From Parahoeflea alexandrii (GTDB lineage Bacteria > Pseudomonadota > Alphaproteobacteria > Rhizobiales > Rhizobiaceae): a DNA stretch of 64,000 bases. Made by a program: the position numbers and the translations under genes. The notes beneath the pieces were generated by a model that was not told where the DNA came from, ran no database searches, and was given only the letters and a program-made list of their open reading frames with translations. Location: NCBI RefSeq assembly GCF_024105735.1, contig NZ_JAAAML010000001.1, forward strand, positions 1,187,809-1,251,808, written 5' to 3'. Below, one piece after another: positions 39,216 to 45,831 of this stretch; position 1 is the stretch's first letter, and the number at the start of each line of letters is the position of its first letter.

Positions 39216-39496
39216 GGGCACGTCCGGCGATAGCGCGAACCGGCCTGGCCCTTCTGCCTTCCGGGCTCGAACAGCGCCGGCGCGTTCTCGCGCCAAATTC
39301 ACCGGTTCTGCCGGCCTGCCGCCGGCCTCTGCTGCCGGCCCCGGGCGTGCGCTCCCCGGGCAGGCCGATGGCCTTGCCCGATGGCTCGGCGGGGCCAGCC
39401 CAAATCTCATGGGCCGTTTCTGGGGGGAGGGGTGAAGCAATTGGTTAACCATTTAAGCCGATAGATTTGCTCAGGAAACCGGAGCCCGGGCGCGAA

Positions 39497-40201
39497 ATGT
39501 CGATGTTCAGATACTATGCCGCCAAGTCAAAGGGGCAGGCGCTTGTTCCCGCCAAGGCGATCCACACCAATTTTCTCAGAACCGGGCGGATCAACCGGCA
39601 GGACGACTGGGTCGCGGAAGAACGCCGCTACCTGACCGAGGAGGAAGTGGCGGAGCGCACCGGCAAACGGCTTGAAAAGGCCGGCAGGAAGACGCACCAG
39701 CGGCTCAACGGCTTTCACCGCAAGATCCGCTTTCCCGAGATCATCTTTCACAAGACGCTGGCGACCGCGCCGCATCTCGGCTACGTCCACGTCACCGCCT
39801 CGAAGGCCGATTTCGCCGACCACAAGGATGTCACCTGGGGCTTCTACATCGCCAATTTCTCGGCCGAGATCGGCGCCGAGAGTGGGGACGACATCGACGC
39901 AGGCAAGGCCGTGGTCCTCCCCGCGGAGCCTGTGGCGGCCGGCGCCGGCGACAGCATCACCGAGCAGGCAGCGCGCGAACATTTCTTCCACCACGTCAAA
40001 CCCGGCTACTCCCGGATGTATTTCGCCGTGGCGATGAAAAACGCGGAAGGCGGCGAAAACCGCCGCCAGGTGATCAACCGCGACATCCGCGACAACGGCG
40101 TCCTGTTCCGCACCGCCGACCCGAAGACCGCGCTGAAGAACGTGCTGATGCTCGGCGCCCGGAACGCGGAGCTGAGGAAGATCGTCGAAGCGATCGGGTG
40201 A
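39497..40201 (+). CDS. Hypothetical protein (possible DUF6656-like)
   Basis: A 234-residue basic protein with no signal peptide or membrane helix. The start is MSMFRYYAAKSKGQ. Conserved-looking segments are HTNFLRTGRINRQDDWVAEE, LGYVHVTASKADFADHKDVT and GYSRMYFAVAMKNAE. Codon use is normal for the genome, so it is a real gene. I recall similar uncharacterised proteins in Rhizobiaceae but cannot assign a function. The ATG at 39497 has only a weak ribosome site; an earlier frame opens at 39467. Confidence 0.6.
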   Translation: MSMFRYYAAKSKGQALVPAKAIHTNFLRTGRINRQDDWVAEERRYLTEEEVAERTGKRLEKAGRKTHQRLNGFHRKIRFPEIIFHKTLATAPHLGYVHVTASKADFADHKDVTWGFYIANFSAEIGAESGDDIDAGKAVVLPAEPVAAGAGDSITEQAAREHFFHHVKPGYSRMYFAVAMKNAEGGENRRQVINRDIRDNGVLFRTADPKTALKNVLMLGARNAELRKIVEAIG

Positions 40202-40573
40202 GGGGCTCAAGGTAAGCAATGGGAGCAGGCGGTTGGCGCGTTGGGTACGTACGGCTTCAATGGGGCTGGAAGCGGGCCTTAAAGGGTGGCAAGCACCTGA
40301 AACATAAATTGACGGAGCAGACGTTGGTGGCTCGAACCAAGTTTCCCCAATCAATGATCTCTGCGGTGTTCCGAATTAATTCCCCAACATAAATAGTTCA
40401 AAGTATTGTAAAAAAAATAATAGAGGCCGTCTTTATGATAAGGCTTCTCCGCAGCTGTATATTTTTGAATTTGGTAATTAGTGCTTGATTCTCTAGCGCC
40501 GCTTTCCGCTGGACCTGAAATTCGTTCGAGGTTAGTGTTAAATCATACGTTTCTCAAAGCGAGAGTTGTTGCG
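40202..40573. other. AT-rich left boundary of the accessory island
   Basis: GC content falls sharply across this stretch, with runs of A and T near 40400. It holds the promoter region of the exonuclease gene. A minus-strand segment near 40330 contains GGTTCGAGCC, reminiscent of a tRNA T-arm, but no cloverleaf can be built. Confidence 0.5.
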
Positions 40574-41965
40574 ATGCCGTTCATATTTTATGATTTAGAA
40601 ACTTCTGGCCTCTCAAAACCTTTCGACCAAATACTCCAGTTCGGCGCAATTTATGCCGATGATGATCTGAATGTAATCGATCAGATCGATCTTCGATGCA
40701 GAAGACGGCCGGAGGTTGTGCCTTCTCCTGGTGCGATGCTTGTGACAAACTTAAAACCAAGTGACCTAGAAGAACCCAACCTCTCTCACTACGAGATGGT
40801 CCGGCAGATTGTGGCTTGGATTTCAGATAAAGTTCCAGCAATTTTCATTGGTCACAATAGTTTGGATTTCGATGAAGATTTCCTCCGCCGTTGTTTCTAT
40901 AGAACACTGGAAGCCCCCTACCTAACGCTGCAGAACGGAAACACTCGCGCAGATACGATGATCATTGCGCACGCGCTACATCATCATGACACTAAGAATA
41001 TTGCAGTACCTGAAGTCGGTGGGAAACCCAGCTTTAGACTCGGTCCGCTGGCAAGGCTGAACGGCATCGATTTCGATGAATCGACAGCTCACGATGCCTT
41101 TGCCGACATTGTCGCGACTCTAGAATTGGCCAAGTACATGCGCGATGCATCTCCCGTCGTATGGGACCAAATGCTTAAGAATGTGAATTTGGCGGGAATC
41201 AACGAGCTTCTCAAAGGAAGTTCTCTTAACTATATGTCAGCCGTGTACTTTGGTCGACCTTTTGGCTTTGCTGTGGCAGAGATCGGTCGGAGCGTAGATA
41301 ATCAGAAGGAAATCGCGCTCTTTGACCTAGCGCACAATCCCGATGATTACGTGAACCTCGGCGTAATGCAGTTGATTAGGGTCCTAGGAAAATCCCCTAA
41401 AGTGATTCGAGTAGCGCAGGCAAACAAACAGCCAATTCTCATGCCTCCGACGCTTCCGGGAGCTTTTTTGAAACCTAATGGGCCCGACCTTCAAGAGTTG
41501 CAACGTCGGGCAAATGTGGTGGTGAATGCCACCCACTTTTCCGAAGCCGTCGGGGAGGCCTTGCCGCAACGATATTTGCCAAAGGATAAGTCAGCATACG
41601 TCGAAGAGCAGATATTCGATGGTTTTTTCGCCGACGAAGACGTCGCCCTCATGAATCTTTTCCATCATTCAGATTGGCCTGAACGTACTTCGATCGTCAC
41701 AAAGTTCTCAGATCAACGCCTTCACGAAATTGGCAATATGATTATCTGCGAAGAAGCACCTCAATTTGCAACAGAAACCCAACTTGATGAGTATGCTCAA
41801 TGGGTGAGTTATCGCAAAACCACGAGCGATGCAGTTCCATGGACAACGGTAACAAAAGCAGTTGTCGAAGCAAACGACCTAATGAATGCCAACCCCGAAA
41901 AGGCCGATCAAATTTCAGAAATCAAGGACTACCTGATTTCGCTTGCAGATGGTGCCTTTGAGTAA
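40574..41965 (+). CDS. Exodeoxyribonuclease I-like DEDDh nuclease
   Basis: A 463-residue protein similar in length and layout to E. coli ExoI (SbcB), a 3'-5' single-strand DNA exonuclease. The DEDDh catalytic set is visible: Asp7 and Glu9 in IFYDLETSGL, Asp98 in GHNSLDFDEDF, His173 and Asp178 in TAHDAFADIVATLELAK. A middle SH3-like region (NYMSAVYFGRPFGFAVAEIG) and a helical C-terminal part follow. The gene is markedly AT-rich compared with flanks, so it is probably acquired. The ATG at 40574 has a weak ribosome site. Its stop lies just before the next gene. Confidence 0.85.
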   Translation: MPFIFYDLETSGLSKPFDQILQFGAIYADDDLNVIDQIDLRCRRRPEVVPSPGAMLVTNLKPSDLEEPNLSHYEMVRQIVAWISDKVPAIFIGHNSLDFDEDFLRRCFYRTLEAPYLTLQNGNTRADTMIIAHALHHHDTKNIAVPEVGGKPSFRLGPLARLNGIDFDESTAHDAFADIVATLELAKYMRDASPVVWDQMLKNVNLAGINELLKGSSLNYMSAVYFGRPFGFAVAEIGRSVDNQKEIALFDLAHNPDDYVNLGVMQLIRVLGKSPKVIRVAQANKQPILMPPTLPGAFLKPNGPDLQELQRRANVVVNATHFSEAVGEALPQRYLPKDKSAYVEEQIFDGFFADEDVALMNLFHHSDWPERTSIVTKFSDQRLHEIGNMIICEEAPQFATETQLDEYAQWVSYRKTTSDAVPWTTVTKAVVEANDLMNANPEKADQISEIKDYLISLADGAFE

Positions 41966-41969
41966 GGCA

Positions 41970-43004
41970 ATGGCAGTTTATCAACTAACACTACCGGCAA
42001 GAGTAGATACTCCGGCGTCACTACGTATCGCACGAGAGTTGATTGATCACTCCGACGCGGATGCGATCATGCTTGATTTCGGCAATGTCTCTTGGGTTGA
42101 GCCATTTGGAATGTTGTACATTTCAATGACCATTCAGTCAGTTCGTGTGAGGTTTCCAAGACTACGCGTTTTTGCTCAAAAATATCATGATCAGGGCTAT
42201 GCTATTCATATGGGCTTTCTACAGCACTGCGGAATTTCTGTAGGTAACCGTTGGAGATCTACCCCTGGTAGCGAGACTTATTCACCAATTACAGAAATTA
42301 AGCTGTCTGAATTGGAAGCGAGGGCTTTCTCGAACAAAACGGTTGTGCAGGATGAGATTGAAGCCGCCGCGCAAAAACTGGCGGCTCTTTTGATCCGCGA
42401 CCCAACCGAAACCAATTTGATCGACGTTGTTCAATATTCAATTCGCGAGTTGGGGAGGAACATTGCAGAACACAGCAGCTCTCCCAGCCTGCTTTATTGC
42501 GCTCAATTCTGGCCAACCAAGCAGCGGATTGAGGTTTGCATAGCGGACTGCGGTGTCGGATTGCTTGAGACACTAAAAGAAAATCCACATCTGACAATCG
42601 AAACCGACGCCGATGCTATTAAAGCAGCCATTTTGCCGGGAATTTCAGGCAAACCAATATCGAGAAAGGCCAGCTATGAAGACCCGTGGGCAAACTCCGG
42701 TTTTGGGTTGTTCATGTTAAGCCGGTTGTGCGCTCGCGGTGGTAACTTCTTCTTGGCCAGTGGTAATAACGGCCTTCTCATAAGTGAAGGTTCCGAGCAT
42801 TTAGTCGAGGCTGGATGCCAAGGCACGGCTGTTCGCATGGTTATGAACACTAAGGAGGTCGGAGGTTTGTCAGAATCTCTGCAACGGATTGCAGCTGAAG
42901 GTTCTGCAGTTGCAAAGGAAATCACTGGTAGCGAAACGGTCGGACCTTCAAGGGCGTCATCAATGGTGCGCCGGGTTTTTCACATCAAAAGTCCAGATGA
43001 ATAG
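41970..43004 (+). CDS. STAS-like plus GHKL ATPase two-domain protein
   Basis: A 344-residue protein. Residues 30-95 look like a STAS domain (DAIMLDFGNVSWVEPFGML). Residues 125-290 resemble a GHKL/histidine-kinase-type ATP-binding domain: N-box IRELGRNIAEHSS (Glu160, Asn164), G1 box IADCGVGLLETL (Asp193, Gly195, Gly197) and G2 box NSGFGLFML (Gly244, Gly246). No phosphoacceptor histidine, sensor or nuclease domain is seen. It directly follows the exonuclease gene; an ATG at 41949 would overlap its stop, suggesting translational coupling. It shares the low GC content. Role unknown; a switch or ATP-driven regulator of the nuclease is my inference. Confidence 0.7.
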   Translation: MAVYQLTLPARVDTPASLRIARELIDHSDADAIMLDFGNVSWVEPFGMLYISMTIQSVRVRFPRLRVFAQKYHDQGYAIHMGFLQHCGISVGNRWRSTPGSETYSPITEIKLSELEARAFSNKTVVQDEIEAAAQKLAALLIRDPTETNLIDVVQYSIRELGRNIAEHSSSPSLLYCAQFWPTKQRIEVCIADCGVGLLETLKENPHLTIETDADAIKAAILPGISGKPISRKASYEDPWANSGFGLFMLSRLCARGGNFFLASGNNGLLISEGSEHLVEAGCQGTAVRMVMNTKEVGGLSESLQRIAAEGSAVAKEITGSETVGPSRASSMVRRVFHIKSPDE

Positions 43005-44301
43005 ATGCAGACAGCTTCAGTAAAGATTTTGCCATGCCGAAAGCCGCAAGACAGAACAAATCTAGCCCATCATCGAAATGTGTTGGCCCAAGTCGGGTTA
43101 AATTTTGGACAGAAATGTAAGTGACGAACTTGGTAAGCCGCAATTGCTGCTTTCCGCAAAATCAAGATGCGATTCTAGTTATGCCAAATGGCGGCTCTCC
43201 GCCTTGTCAGGGCTTAAGCGCGGTCAATGGCGAATGCTGCAAACGCGTACTCGGTGCAAAATCGCGAAAGACCGAGGTGGCGGCGCAAAGCGGTAGCAGA
43301 CGATGATCTCTACTTGGTTGCTTATGCAACAAGGACAGCATGGTTCCTCGGCTCGGAGGCCGAGGATGACGATCAAGAGAGGCTGAGGTTATCGACCGGG
43401 AGGTCGGGTAGGCTCGTGCACTTTCCCAACCCACCACCCCCGCAATCCCGCCCATTCCCCACAAAATTCACCCCATCTTTTCCACACCTCCCATCCCCGT
43501 GGCAGACTCGGTCCGCTCCCGCTGCCGGATGGATCGCGAACGTTTCGAGCCAGGCGGGAGGGAATGCCCCCTGATCTGGTGCGCAAACGTCAGCGTGTCG
43601 GGCAGGGGGAGGCGATGGCCAACGTGGTTCCGCTGGCGGGCGGCGCTCCTTCGGGAGCGCCGTGCAAAGCCAGCCACCGGGCCGGGGTCCTGTTGCCTGC
43701 CTGACGGGCGGGGTGGATCACCGGCGCGGGCCTGTGGCGGACATGGCGCATCTTCTCGCGTCAGGGTCCGTGCCGGAACACGCGCCCAAAGCATCTCCCG
43801 CGGCCCGTCCAGGCCGCGGCCGGGGCAACCCGGGTGGAGGGCCCTGAAGAGGGGCGGGTGAGTAAGCCAACCTCCACGTGCGTGCGAGGCCGACGCCTGT
43901 CGGGTGGGGACACCATCCGGTGAGTTCCGGGCCGCGCGCTGTCAGCGCCACCCAAGTGCATGTCGCGTTCAAATGGTTTCATTTGAACGATAACGTACAT
44001 GCACCACTAAAAACCTCTTACCTGAGGCACTGCCCGCGCGCGGCCCTCCGGACTATCCTTTCCCACATCCCGGCGGCGGTGCCGCGCGGGCCGGTTCCGG
44101 CTGTCCGGATGGCGGCTGGCGATGGCGGTTGGCGATGGCGTCGGGCGATGGCTGCGGGGGACGGCCCGCTGGGCGCCCGAAACCTTCGTCCGAAACCGGC
44201 ATCCGGGCACCTCATCGCCCGGGCCGGCAATTTCGGGTTGCCGGGGGAACATTCGCGGAGCGGTTGAGTTGTCCTCGCTTGAGACACAGGAGAGGCGCAG
44301 C
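43005..44301. other. 1.3 kb stretch without a convincing gene
   Basis: The left third (to about 43300) keeps the AT-rich composition of the island and contains a 28-codon frame (43034-43120) that could be a gene remnant. The right two thirds are GC-rich with long shadow frames of poor composition. A nested inverted repeat lies at 43956-44004. The catalase ribosome site is at the right end. Confidence 0.5.
43956..44004. promoter_or_regulatory. Nested inverted repeat upstream of katA
   Basis: Inner arms CGTTCAAATG (43966-43975) and CATTTGAACG (43980-43989) are exact complements around GTTT. Outer arms GTGCATGT (43956-43963) and ACATGCAC (43997-44004) are also exact. The element lies about 300 bases before the catalase start, in a stretch with no gene, and could be an operator or an RNA hairpin. 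Confidence 0.6.
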
Positions 44302-45831
44302 ATGACGAAGAAGCAAGACATTCCGCACACCACCCCCCACACGACAACCGATGCCGGGATCCGGGTTCAGAGCGACGAGCATTCGCTGACCATCGGCCCC
44401 GACGGACCGATCGTGCTCAACGACCATTACCTTCTCGAGCAGATGGCGAATTTCAACCGCGAGCGCATCCCCGAGCGGCAGCCGCACGCCAAGGGCTCGG
44501 GCGGCTTCGGCCGATTCGAGACGACGCAGGACGTGTCGCGCTACACCAAGGCGAAGATCTTCCAGCCCGGCGCGTCCTGCGAGGTGGCGATGCGGTTTTC
44601 GACGGTCGCCGGCGAGCGCGGCAGCCCCGACACCTGGCGCGATCCGCGCGGCTTCTCGGTCAAGATGTACACCGAGGAAGGCAATTTCGACATGGTCGGC
44701 AACAACACGCCGATCTTCTTCATCCGCGACCCGATGAAGTTCCAGCATTTCATTCGCAGCCAGAAGCGGCGCGCCGACAACGACATGCGCGACCATGACA
44801 TGCAGTGGGATTTCTGGACGCTGTCGCCCGAAAGCGCCCACCAGGTCGCCTACCTGATGGGTGACCGCGGCATCCCGAAGACCTGGCGCGAGATGAACGG
44901 CTATTCCAGCCACACCTATTCGCTGGTCAATGAAGAGGGCGAGCGGTTCTGGGTCAAGTTCCATTTCCACACTGACCAGGGCGACGGCAATGCCTATCTG
45001 AGCCAGGACGAGGCCGACAGGCTGGCGGGCTCCGACGGCGATTTCCACCGCCGCGACCTGTTCAACGCGATCCGCGACGGCGACCATCCGAGCTGGACGC
45101 TGAAATGGCAGGTGATGCCCTTCGAGGACGCCAAGACCTACCGCATCAACCCGTTCGACCTGACCAAGGTCTGGCCGCATGCGGACTATCCGCTGATCGA
45201 GGTCGGCAAGCTGACGCTTAACCGCAACCCGACCGACTTCCACACCCAGATCGAACAGGCGGCGTTCGAGCCCAACAACATGGTGCCGGGCATCGGGTTG
45301 TCGCCGGACAAGATGCTGCTGGCGCGCGGCTTTTCCTATGCGGATGCGCACCGGGCGCGGCTTGGCGTCAACTACAAGCAGATCCCGGTCAATGCCGCCA
45401 GGAGCCCGGTGCACAGCTATTCCAAGGACGGCGCGGGGCGGACGGAGAATGTTTCGGACCCGGTCTACGCGCCCAATTCCTATGGCGGGCCTGCGGCGCA
45501 GCCGGCGCCCGAGGAGGCGGGCCTCTGGCATTCGGACGGCGACATGGTGCGTGCGGCCTACACGCTGCGCGAGGATGATGACGACTGGAGCCAGGCCGGC
45601 GCGCTGGTGCGCGAAGTGATGGACGAGGACGCGCGCGGCCGCCTGGTCGACAGTGTCGTCGGCCATCTCTGCGACGGGGTCAGCGAGAAGGTGCTCGAGC
45701 GCGCCTTCGAGTACTGGCGCAACATCGATGGCGAGACCGGCGAGAAGATCGAGAAGGGCGTGCGCGACAAGCTCGGCGGCAAGTCCGACGCGCCGGGCAT
45801 GGCCTCGGCCGAAAGCATCGGCGGGAAATAG
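44302..45831 (+). CDS. katA: Monofunctional haem catalase
   Basis: Cytoplasmic haem enzyme that breaks hydrogen peroxide into water and oxygen. The 509-residue length is that of a small-subunit (clade 3) catalase. The active-site His is in [15 protein letters not shown], the Asn in [18 protein letters not shown], and the haem-ligand Tyr in [23 protein letters not shown] precedes the ATG at 44302. A 12-base hairpin follows the stop. Whether OxyR regulates it is not visible. Confidence 0.95.

Follow-up and report, generated by a model that had tools for sequence, protein, structure and literature searches.

The 64-kb window analyzed here (64,000 nt of Parahoeflea alexandrii contig NZ_JAAAML010000001.1; all coordinates are positions in this window, on the + strand unless stated) contains an AT-rich island of two tandem genes, gene 1 and gene 2, predicted to encode an exonuclease I (ExoI)-type nuclease and a STAS-GHKL kinase, respectively (Table 1). 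The G+C content of gene 1 is 0.475 and that of gene 2 is 0.483, against 0.618 for the entire window; at third codon positions the values are 0.476 and 0.463, against 0.853 and 0.889 in two measured flanking genes. None of 1112 same-length windows sampled clear of the island matched its AT content (minimum G+C 0.526). Three starts are open to gene 2 (TTG 41943, ATG 41949 and ATG 41970), the first two of which fall within gene 1. A preliminary description of the window, made from the letters alone, had already reported two low-GC genes at these positions and a possible start of gene 2 inside gene 1, and both observations hold.

On the basis of its sequence, gene 1 is a divergent exonuclease I (SbcB)-type DEDDh exonuclease with a predicted 3'-5' activity. 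Its product matches the solved ExoI chains 4rg8 (E value 4.7e-32 by phmmer) and 4jrp, 4hcb and 1fxx (1.6e-31), its Pfam matches to RNase_T and Exonuc_X-T_C are both above cut-off, and the ExoI C-terminal domain is present (PF08411, 50.3 bits, cut-off 27), so that the assignment to an ExoI-type nuclease of ExoI-like length made in the preliminary description is borne out. In an alignment of seven sequences, the window's own included, the catalytic Asp7, Glu9, His173 and Asp178 are invariant as previously described, but the third acid is not the Asp98 named then; it is Asp100, two residues downstream, which matches the FDD motif of the solved ExoI chains. The NCBIfam exoI equivalog model scores 189.6 bits, under its 260-bit cut-off, and the protein is therefore regarded as a divergent homologue and named ExoI-type rather than ExoI. 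A structure model built from four sequences reached a predicted local distance difference test score (pLDDT) of 41.6. Gene 1 resembles exonuclease I in its catalytic set, C-terminal domain and length, but differs in being an accessory gene in an AT-rich island: homologues at an E value of 1e-10 or better were found in 3 of 61 genomes searched (its own included), only 1 of the 17 other genomes of the genus has one (33% identity), and the plasmid-borne ExoI relatives listed share 25-36% identity with it.

The structure model of gene 2 (pLDDT 83.7, predicted template modelling score 0.85) shows a GHKL domain between a STAS-like domain and a helical C-terminal tail. Its best PDB matches are the SpoIIAB entries 1l0o and 1tid (template modelling (TM) score by target 0.69-0.70, Foldseek), of which 1l0o gives a TM score by target of 0.69 with probability 1.00 and an E value of 2.1e-3; this is the best E value among the PDB matches, none of which reaches E <=0.001. 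The next matches are topoisomerase VI-B, an amidohydrolase-like entry (Mglu) and STAS proteins such as RsbS. Pfam returned a sub-threshold HATPase_c_2 match only. An N-terminal helix-turn-helix (HTH) domain gave no Pfam match, and the first STAS strand already begins at residue 10. Membership in DISARM was also considered and rejected: the DrmA matches are weak (2.8e-06, covering about 100 of the profile's 1750 positions) and probably reflect the common GHKL fold.

The placement of gene 2 was examined in a tree of STAS-GHKL kinases gathered from plasmids, phages, genomes and IMG/VR viral contigs, for which 4 of 7 plasmid records (the remaining three being further Bradyrhizobium elkanii) and 5 of 8 phage records were opened. 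The tree has 43 rows: 25 kinases without a STAS substrate (hereafter S-free), 13 with a separate STAS partner, four with a fused one, and one (L162, left out of the label counts) with none recognised. Gene 2 falls in a clade made up of the 25 S-free rows with support of 98/100, in a tree whose branches are long and whose deep order is unsure. Outside this clade a STAS substrate lies beside or is fused to 17 of the 18 kinases, L162 being the exception. A profile of the 13 partners, run with E values up to 10 against the 29 family loci and the 64-kb window, found no STAS substrate (3800 open frames; 24 of the loci are in the tree, and their flanks are mostly 5-8 kb, 1.5 kb in L153 and L156, and short on one side in a few). 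In a leave-one-out control the same profile recovered 13/13 left-out partners at E <=0.0032; among these are the partners of L159, L163 and L165, which, like the fused STAS of L160, had first been picked by eye. DUF4325 has no match in the genome of the window at an E value of 0.1, with the limit that this model under-scores some true partners, e.g. that of L013, below its cut-off.

The count of 28 S-free loci with neighbourhood read that is used below includes five loci that are missing from the kinase tree, namely L045 and, with partial or split frames, L005, L025, L039 and L040; conversely, L153 and L156 entered the tree and the substrate search without being part of that count. L158 was dropped, as no frame in it matches the kinase profile, and the duplicate rows L001, L018-L022, L035, L046, L049, L069, L097, L149, L154 and L167-L169 were removed. 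The comparators include two kinase-STAS-PIN triads (L152 and L157) and a kinase with a STAS protein that has a weak MarR-like C-terminus (L161). Separately, STAS-GHKL-STAS fusions of 399-426 aa, seemingly kinase and substrate in one chain, were observed at L155:366-1565, L160:1015-2286 (fused STAS by eye), L164:1111-2385 and L166:1105-2385, and the inserted fragment IFa of the archaeal prophage psiM100 (L015:3448-6240) encodes a kinase-substrate pair, a STAS-GHKL protein with a DUF4325 STAS protein, along with a 492-aa gene that reaches the end of the fragment.

The ATP-binding boxes noted in the preliminary description are well conserved across these kinases. The N-box residues Glu167, Asn171 and His175 are present in 25/25 S-free, 13/13 STAS-partnered and 4/4 STAS-fused kinases; in the G2 box Asn249, Gly251, Gly253 and Leu254 are invariant in 18 sequences, and Gly251 and Gly253 are found in all 25 S-free kinases, as are the G1-box residues given in Table 1. 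Together with the model and its SpoIIAB and STAS matches, this upholds the STAS-GHKL architecture. Two features of the S-free clade lie outside these boxes. The STAS domain of gene 2 has Pro52-Phe53 near the phosphoacceptor position, where STAS substrates carry Ser or Thr (a comparison with 13 STAS substrates made by eye between separate alignments); Pro52 is invariant in 18 sequences and Phe53 is present in 22/25 S-free kinases. The C-terminal tail, modelled as a helix at residues 333-343 with moderate confidence, carries Ser334 in 24/25 and Ser337 in 23/25 S-free kinases, at a place where 13/13 STAS-partnered kinases have a gap.

The closest studied relatives are the kinases CapK and VapK. 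As described in the main text of PMC13373217 (EMBO J 2026), CapK is an HTH-STAS-GHKL kinase that is activated by single-stranded DNA (ssDNA) of about 20 bases and phosphorylates CapS, a STAS-winged HTH protein; mutating Trp68 in a predicted ssDNA groove abolishes the activation, and capS immediately follows capK in all 443 capK homologues. The same text proposes that the CapK-like kinase of VapK-VapS-VapC frees a PIN toxin, and likewise compares CapK with SpoIIAB (PMC13373217); the words 'exonuclease' and 'SbcB' are absent from that main text. Gene 2 is similar to CapK in that a STAS domain precedes a SpoIIAB-kind GHKL kinase domain with intact N, G1 and G2 boxes, and members of its family turn up on plasmids and viral contigs as well as in defence-like settings; it differs in lacking the N-terminal HTH and an adjoining capS, in having a clade-specific tail and an ExoI partner, and in that no downstream immune operon was seen, a comparison drawn with no published CapK sequence compared directly. 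The likeness to VapK lies in a STAS-GHKL protein without HTH next to a nuclease gene, but there is no VapS, the block consists of two genes only, and the nuclease is an ExoI-type DNA exonuclease and not a PIN protein. Gene 2 also shares the GHKL serine-kinase fold of SpoIIAB and RsbW, but has no neighbouring STAS antagonist gene in the window. By its sequence and tree position, then, gene 2 belongs to the CapK/VapK superfamily as an S-free kinase that is neither CapK nor VapK by their defining neighbours; the earlier statement that no named system has this pair was thus incomplete.

The pair recurs in one further genome, G151, which belongs to the same class as the window but to a different family. 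The two ExoI-type proteins are about 80% identical and the two kinases 75-77% (depending on the method), the DNA of the two pairs is homologous from 40574 to 42986, where the similarity ends (Table 1), and the same 23-nt overlap is open in both. Between the two copies pN, the proportion of nonsynonymous differences, is 0.128 for gene 1 and 0.148 for gene 2, against saturated synonymous values (pS) of 0.846 and 0.831, indicating that both proteins are under purifying selection. A kinase-profile search of five genomes of the order of G151 and 327 of the order of the window found no further pair; beyond the two known ones it returned one kinase without ExoI in view, L153. The co-occurrence that the preliminary description proposed to check is thus real, with the two genes overlapping in two genomes, but it is rare and confined to one lineage. 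A 449-aa gene lies upstream of the G151 pair (L023:6126-7475, - strand); it has no Pfam or PADLOC match, and by eye could be a PD-(D/E)XK-type nuclease.

The 28 S-free kinase loci, which are not all independent (one kinase sequence is shared by L004 and L033, and L036/L037 and L042/L045 are nearly the same) and of which L033, L041 and L044 have one flank of <=0.5 kb, include 26 without ExoI, and these have no constant partner. In L027 and in L036/L037 the kinase sits between housekeeping genes, nusB and thiL in L027 (names assigned by eye). S-free kinases also occur in five IMG/VR viral contigs, and in a viral contig (L044) the kinase lies 7 nt behind an S24/HTH repressor. In L005 the kinase, interrupted by an insertion sequence, lies 92 nt downstream of the Shedu gene sduA, and in L004:7405-9249 (a Phaeobacter plasmid) and L033:5149-6993 (a Pseudaestuariivita contig) the identical kinases each lie 6 nt behind a 272-aa gene with a HEPN_RES_NTD1 match below cut-off. 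A plasmid of Bradyrhizobium elkanii (L002:5025-7508) has an S-free kinase whose neighbours are a short-Argonaute gene (PADLOC pAgo_I, 1.3e-172) and a divergent gene of 299 aa that has no match in Pfam. Two Rhodobacterales (L029:451-1170 and L039:5263-5997) have a gene of ~240 aa, with no significant Pfam match, directly upstream of the kinase, whose frame is split in L039.

ExoI relatives of gene 1 stand beside controllers of another kind as well. A tree of these relatives, omitting L126 (gene cut off by the contig end) and the weak L128-L130, splits into several clades, one of which (support 92/98, 10 rows) has ExoI as the third gene after HTH and ImmA/IrrE genes in 9/10 rows (plasmid loci L006-L009 and L011 and genomes G401, G383, G421 and G013); the tenth, L010, is on a long branch and lacks the arrangement. 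Seven of 41 plasmid ExoI records were opened, five with HTH-ImmA/IrrE and two without. All nine loci adjoin CBASS or ubiquitin-like genes, from which the ExoI operons are divergent: the CBASS neighbours are L133 (with HORMA, TRIP13 and NucC), L007 (with a 2TM effector), L134 and L090, the last being a near-identical copy of L133 in an assembly (G013) with 9% contamination, and the ubiquitin-like ones are L006 (BilD), L131 (Multi_ubiq and ThiF) and, by annotation, L008, L009 and L011. We refer to these controllers as CapH/CapP-like (CapHP-like), a name that rests on architecture and context and not on comparison with the published proteins. They resemble the present pair in the ExoI-type gene, third in nine loci, and in that published CapP is described as ssDNA-activated (PMC13373217), but they combine a protease with a repressor instead of a kinase, and their ExoI belongs to another clade. 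An ExoI-type gene is therefore found beside two unrelated kinds of controller whose studied relatives respond to ssDNA. We found no published link of ExoI with CapH/CapP or CBASS in the literature, although the original papers on CapH/CapP and on ubiquitin-like operons may hold one.

These observations suggest that the pair is a small immune or stress module carrying its own alarm together with the silencer of that alarm. With rather less than even confidence, we propose that the island is a mobile two-gene sensor-eraser module, in which the trigger of an ssDNA-activated kinase is set or erased by a co-encoded ssDNA exonuclease, and we infer the following course. Gene 2 would be switched on, by homology to CapK, by ssDNA arising from phage infection or DNA damage, and gene 1 is expected to digest that same ligand from the 3' end. 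The two genes would be co-transcribed and the nuclease probably made first from the shared message, holding basal ssDNA low, setting the firing threshold and resetting the kinase as ssDNA drops. Once ssDNA outruns the nuclease, the kinase would phosphorylate its target and trigger a protective stress or abortive response; as the window yielded no STAS substrate gene, that target may be the conserved Ser-x-x-Ser tail of the kinase itself or a protein of the host. The preliminary description had instead supposed that an ATP-dependent switch restrains or triggers the exonuclease, possibly for defence, and is partly supported in its overall interpretation; because ssDNA activates CapK, a nuclease restraining the kinase appears at least as likely as the reverse direction.

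Precedents for ExoI as a restraint come from reverse transcriptase (RT) systems. For DRT9 of Escherichia coli, host ExoI is stated to prevent this ssDNA-making immune system from killing its host (PMC12483538), and an RT-SLATT system is described as rendering sbcB essential in an E. coli strain (PMC9122126); DRT3 is said to rely on RecBCD and not on SbcB (PMC13174585). The likeness of the present pair to DRT9/UG17 is that ExoI restrains an ssDNA-centred immune system, but in that system ExoI comes from the sbcB gene of the host, and an RT supplies the ssDNA (PMC12483538). Single-stranded DNA increasingly looks like an alarm shared by bacterial immune controllers: besides the ssDNA-activated CapK, CapW and CapP are stated to become active by binding it (PMC13373217). 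A controller with its own ssDNA-degrading enzyme, if true, would be a direct answer to how so common a molecule avoids constant false alarms. The ExoI genes in CapH/CapP-like operons near CBASS and ubiquitin-like systems give a second, separate prediction, and the S-free clade raises the question of what a CapK-type kinase targets without CapS or VapS. A wider version, in which the S-free clade consists of one-gene ssDNA-triggered immune kinases that gave up the STAS substrate and use the tail as phosphoacceptor or pseudosubstrate and ExoI was recruited twice, beside the kinase and beside CapH/CapP-like controllers, as a built-in eraser adjusting the threshold of immune alarms and resetting them, seems to us rather doubtful.

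Several observations weigh against the sensor-eraser proposal. The two known copies of the pair are of one lineage, so the pairing represents one event, and 26 of the 28 S-free loci show no ExoI in the neighbourhood read, which means that the kinase does not need it. The aromatic residue of the STAS-GHKL groove could not be placed: Trp49 and Phe53 are candidates for the equivalent of CapK Trp68 or VapK Phe54, and column 49 is aromatic in 15/25 S-free kinases, column 53 in 23/25 of them but in only 1/13 STAS-partnered ones. The kinase-linked ExoI rows form their own clade apart from the CapHP-linked one, making the CapHP parallel an analogy. In a survey of the class, ExoI matches (28) occurred in 27 of 385 genomes, and the 18 of 28 contexts that were read comprise three with HTH-ImmA/IrrE (CapHP-like), two with the kinase and 13 with neither. 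Gene 1 is the sole ExoI homologue found in its own genome and might just supply a general repair nuclease. Finally, the PADLOC profile RTasSbcB matches gene 1 at 5.5e-91 but also the ExoI of L139, in a trx-type core context, at 2.6e-94, and is therefore not diagnostic. Membership in a defence-associated RT (DRT) system, considered on the strength of that profile's name, was rejected on this ground; the conserved block 40574-42986 holds two genes only and no RT, the rest of the window not having been scanned for RTs.

The sensor-eraser proposal has to be weighed against three other readings. The ExoI-type nuclease may itself be the weapon, held or activated by the STAS-GHKL protein through binding or phosphorylation on ssDNA or another cue; this puts the idea of the preliminary description in CapK/VapK terms, with ExoI standing in for VapS-VapC. 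VapKSC, as a CapK-like kinase controlling a nuclease, provides the precedent (PMC13373217), the gene overlap is kept in both copies of the pair, and other S-free kinases lie behind different candidate effectors, namely the Shedu SduA of L005 and the HEPN_RES_NTD1-like gene of L004/L033. VapK, however, acts by way of a STAS antitoxin, for which neither the partner-profile search of the window and the 29 loci nor the DUF4325 search of the genome gave a match; the STAS domain of gene 2 has Pro-Phe near the place of the substrates' Ser or Thr, and the 26 family loci without ExoI also tell against this reading. No toxicity is known for ExoI. We consider this reading unlikely. Alternatively, the two genes may be independent cargo, a self-sufficient S-free kinase beside which ExoI was caught once with no joint mechanism, which would agree with the lack of a constant partner (as between nusB and thiL in L027 and in the five viral contigs) and with the single known lineage of the pair. 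Against it, neither gene has decayed: the two still overlap and remain under purifying selection although the copies have diverged to about 75-80% protein identity, in genomes of different families and with unrelated flanks. The one origin of the pair keeps the bystander reading in play, although we would not expect it to prove correct.

Gene 2 could also be an ordinary anti-sigma-type regulator with its STAS substrate or sigma factor elsewhere in the genome and ExoI as a bystander, as the preliminary description had allowed. The nearest fold, SpoIIAB, favours this, but no such partner came to light: there is no substrate in the window or the 29 loci and no DUF4325 match in the genome, the search having left out sigma factors and PF01740 or other STAS genes elsewhere. 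In G151 one sub-threshold DUF4325 match (15.8 bits) lies elsewhere in the genome. Gene 2 is moreover absent from the 60 relatives searched, so it is no component of a network that is native to the genus. With no STAS substrate found (sigma factors not searched for) and gene 2 accessory, a plain anti-sigma regulator was rejected as the explanation and appears very improbable to us.

The site that holds the island is variable. Counting that of the window itself, 15 of the 18 genomes of the genus contain DNA matching the left flanking gene, which is followed on its right by different cargo in relatives, and the catalase on the right is conserved in the same place (Table 1). The catalase was considered as a part of the module and rejected, as it is the conserved right flank. 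The pair is present in 0/8 relatives read at this site. Two of the eight carry other cargo of interest there, a retron-type RT in G002 (L092:2902-3852, PADLOC RT_II-A, 1.6e-116) and a TacA-type antitoxin with a GNAT gene, i.e. a TacA-type toxin-antitoxin system, in G006. Since the cargo varies among relatives, the site is probably an integration hotspot, and this, with the CBASS or ubiquitin-like operons beside the other ExoI clade in 9/10 rows, agrees with the defence-like setting suggested earlier. No direct repeat flanks the island within 40150-43700, an Rfam scan of 40000-44200 gave 0 matches, and promoter and terminator scans did no better than on shuffled sequence.

Table 1. Features of the two-gene island and its flanks in the 64-kb window.
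Feature	Position	Strand	Basis or remark
Gene 1, ExoI-type exonuclease	40574-41965	+	463 aa
Gene 2, STAS-GHKL kinase	41949-43004	+	351 aa from ATG 41949; 353 aa from TTG 41943
Overlap of gene 1 and gene 2 frames	41949-41965	+	23 nt if TTG 41943 is used
DNA homology block to the G151 pair	40574-42986	+	71%, blastn; flanks unrelated
Gene 1, catalytic Asp7 and Glu9	40592-40600	+	invariant in 7 aligned sequences
Gene 1, catalytic Asp100	40871-40873	+	invariant in alignment; FDD motif of solved ExoI chains
Gene 1, catalytic His173 and Asp178	41090-41107	+	invariant in 7 aligned sequences
Gene 2, STAS-like domain, residues about 10-93	41976-42227	+	model secondary structure; Foldseek STAS matches
Gene 2, GHKL N box, Glu167-x3-Asn171-x3-His175	42447-42473	+	alignment
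Gene 2, GHKL G1 box DxGxG, residues 200-204	42546-42560	+	Asp200, Gly202 and Gly204 in 25/25 S-free kinases
Gene 2, GHKL G2 box NSGFGL, residues 249-254	42693-42710	+	alignment
Gene 2, clade-specific C-terminal tail, helical, with the conserved Ser334 and Ser337	42945-42977	+	alignment; model
Left flanking gene of the insertion hotspot, outside the module	39467-40201	+	DNA match, different cargo on its right in relatives
Catalase, right flank, outside the module	44290-45831	+	DNA identity 90% in G006 and G013, 89% in G014, same place

At the Maritimibacter locus (L028:5992-8758) the kinase gene converges on a catalase gene similar, by eye, to that on the right flank of the island; this is probably a coincidence.

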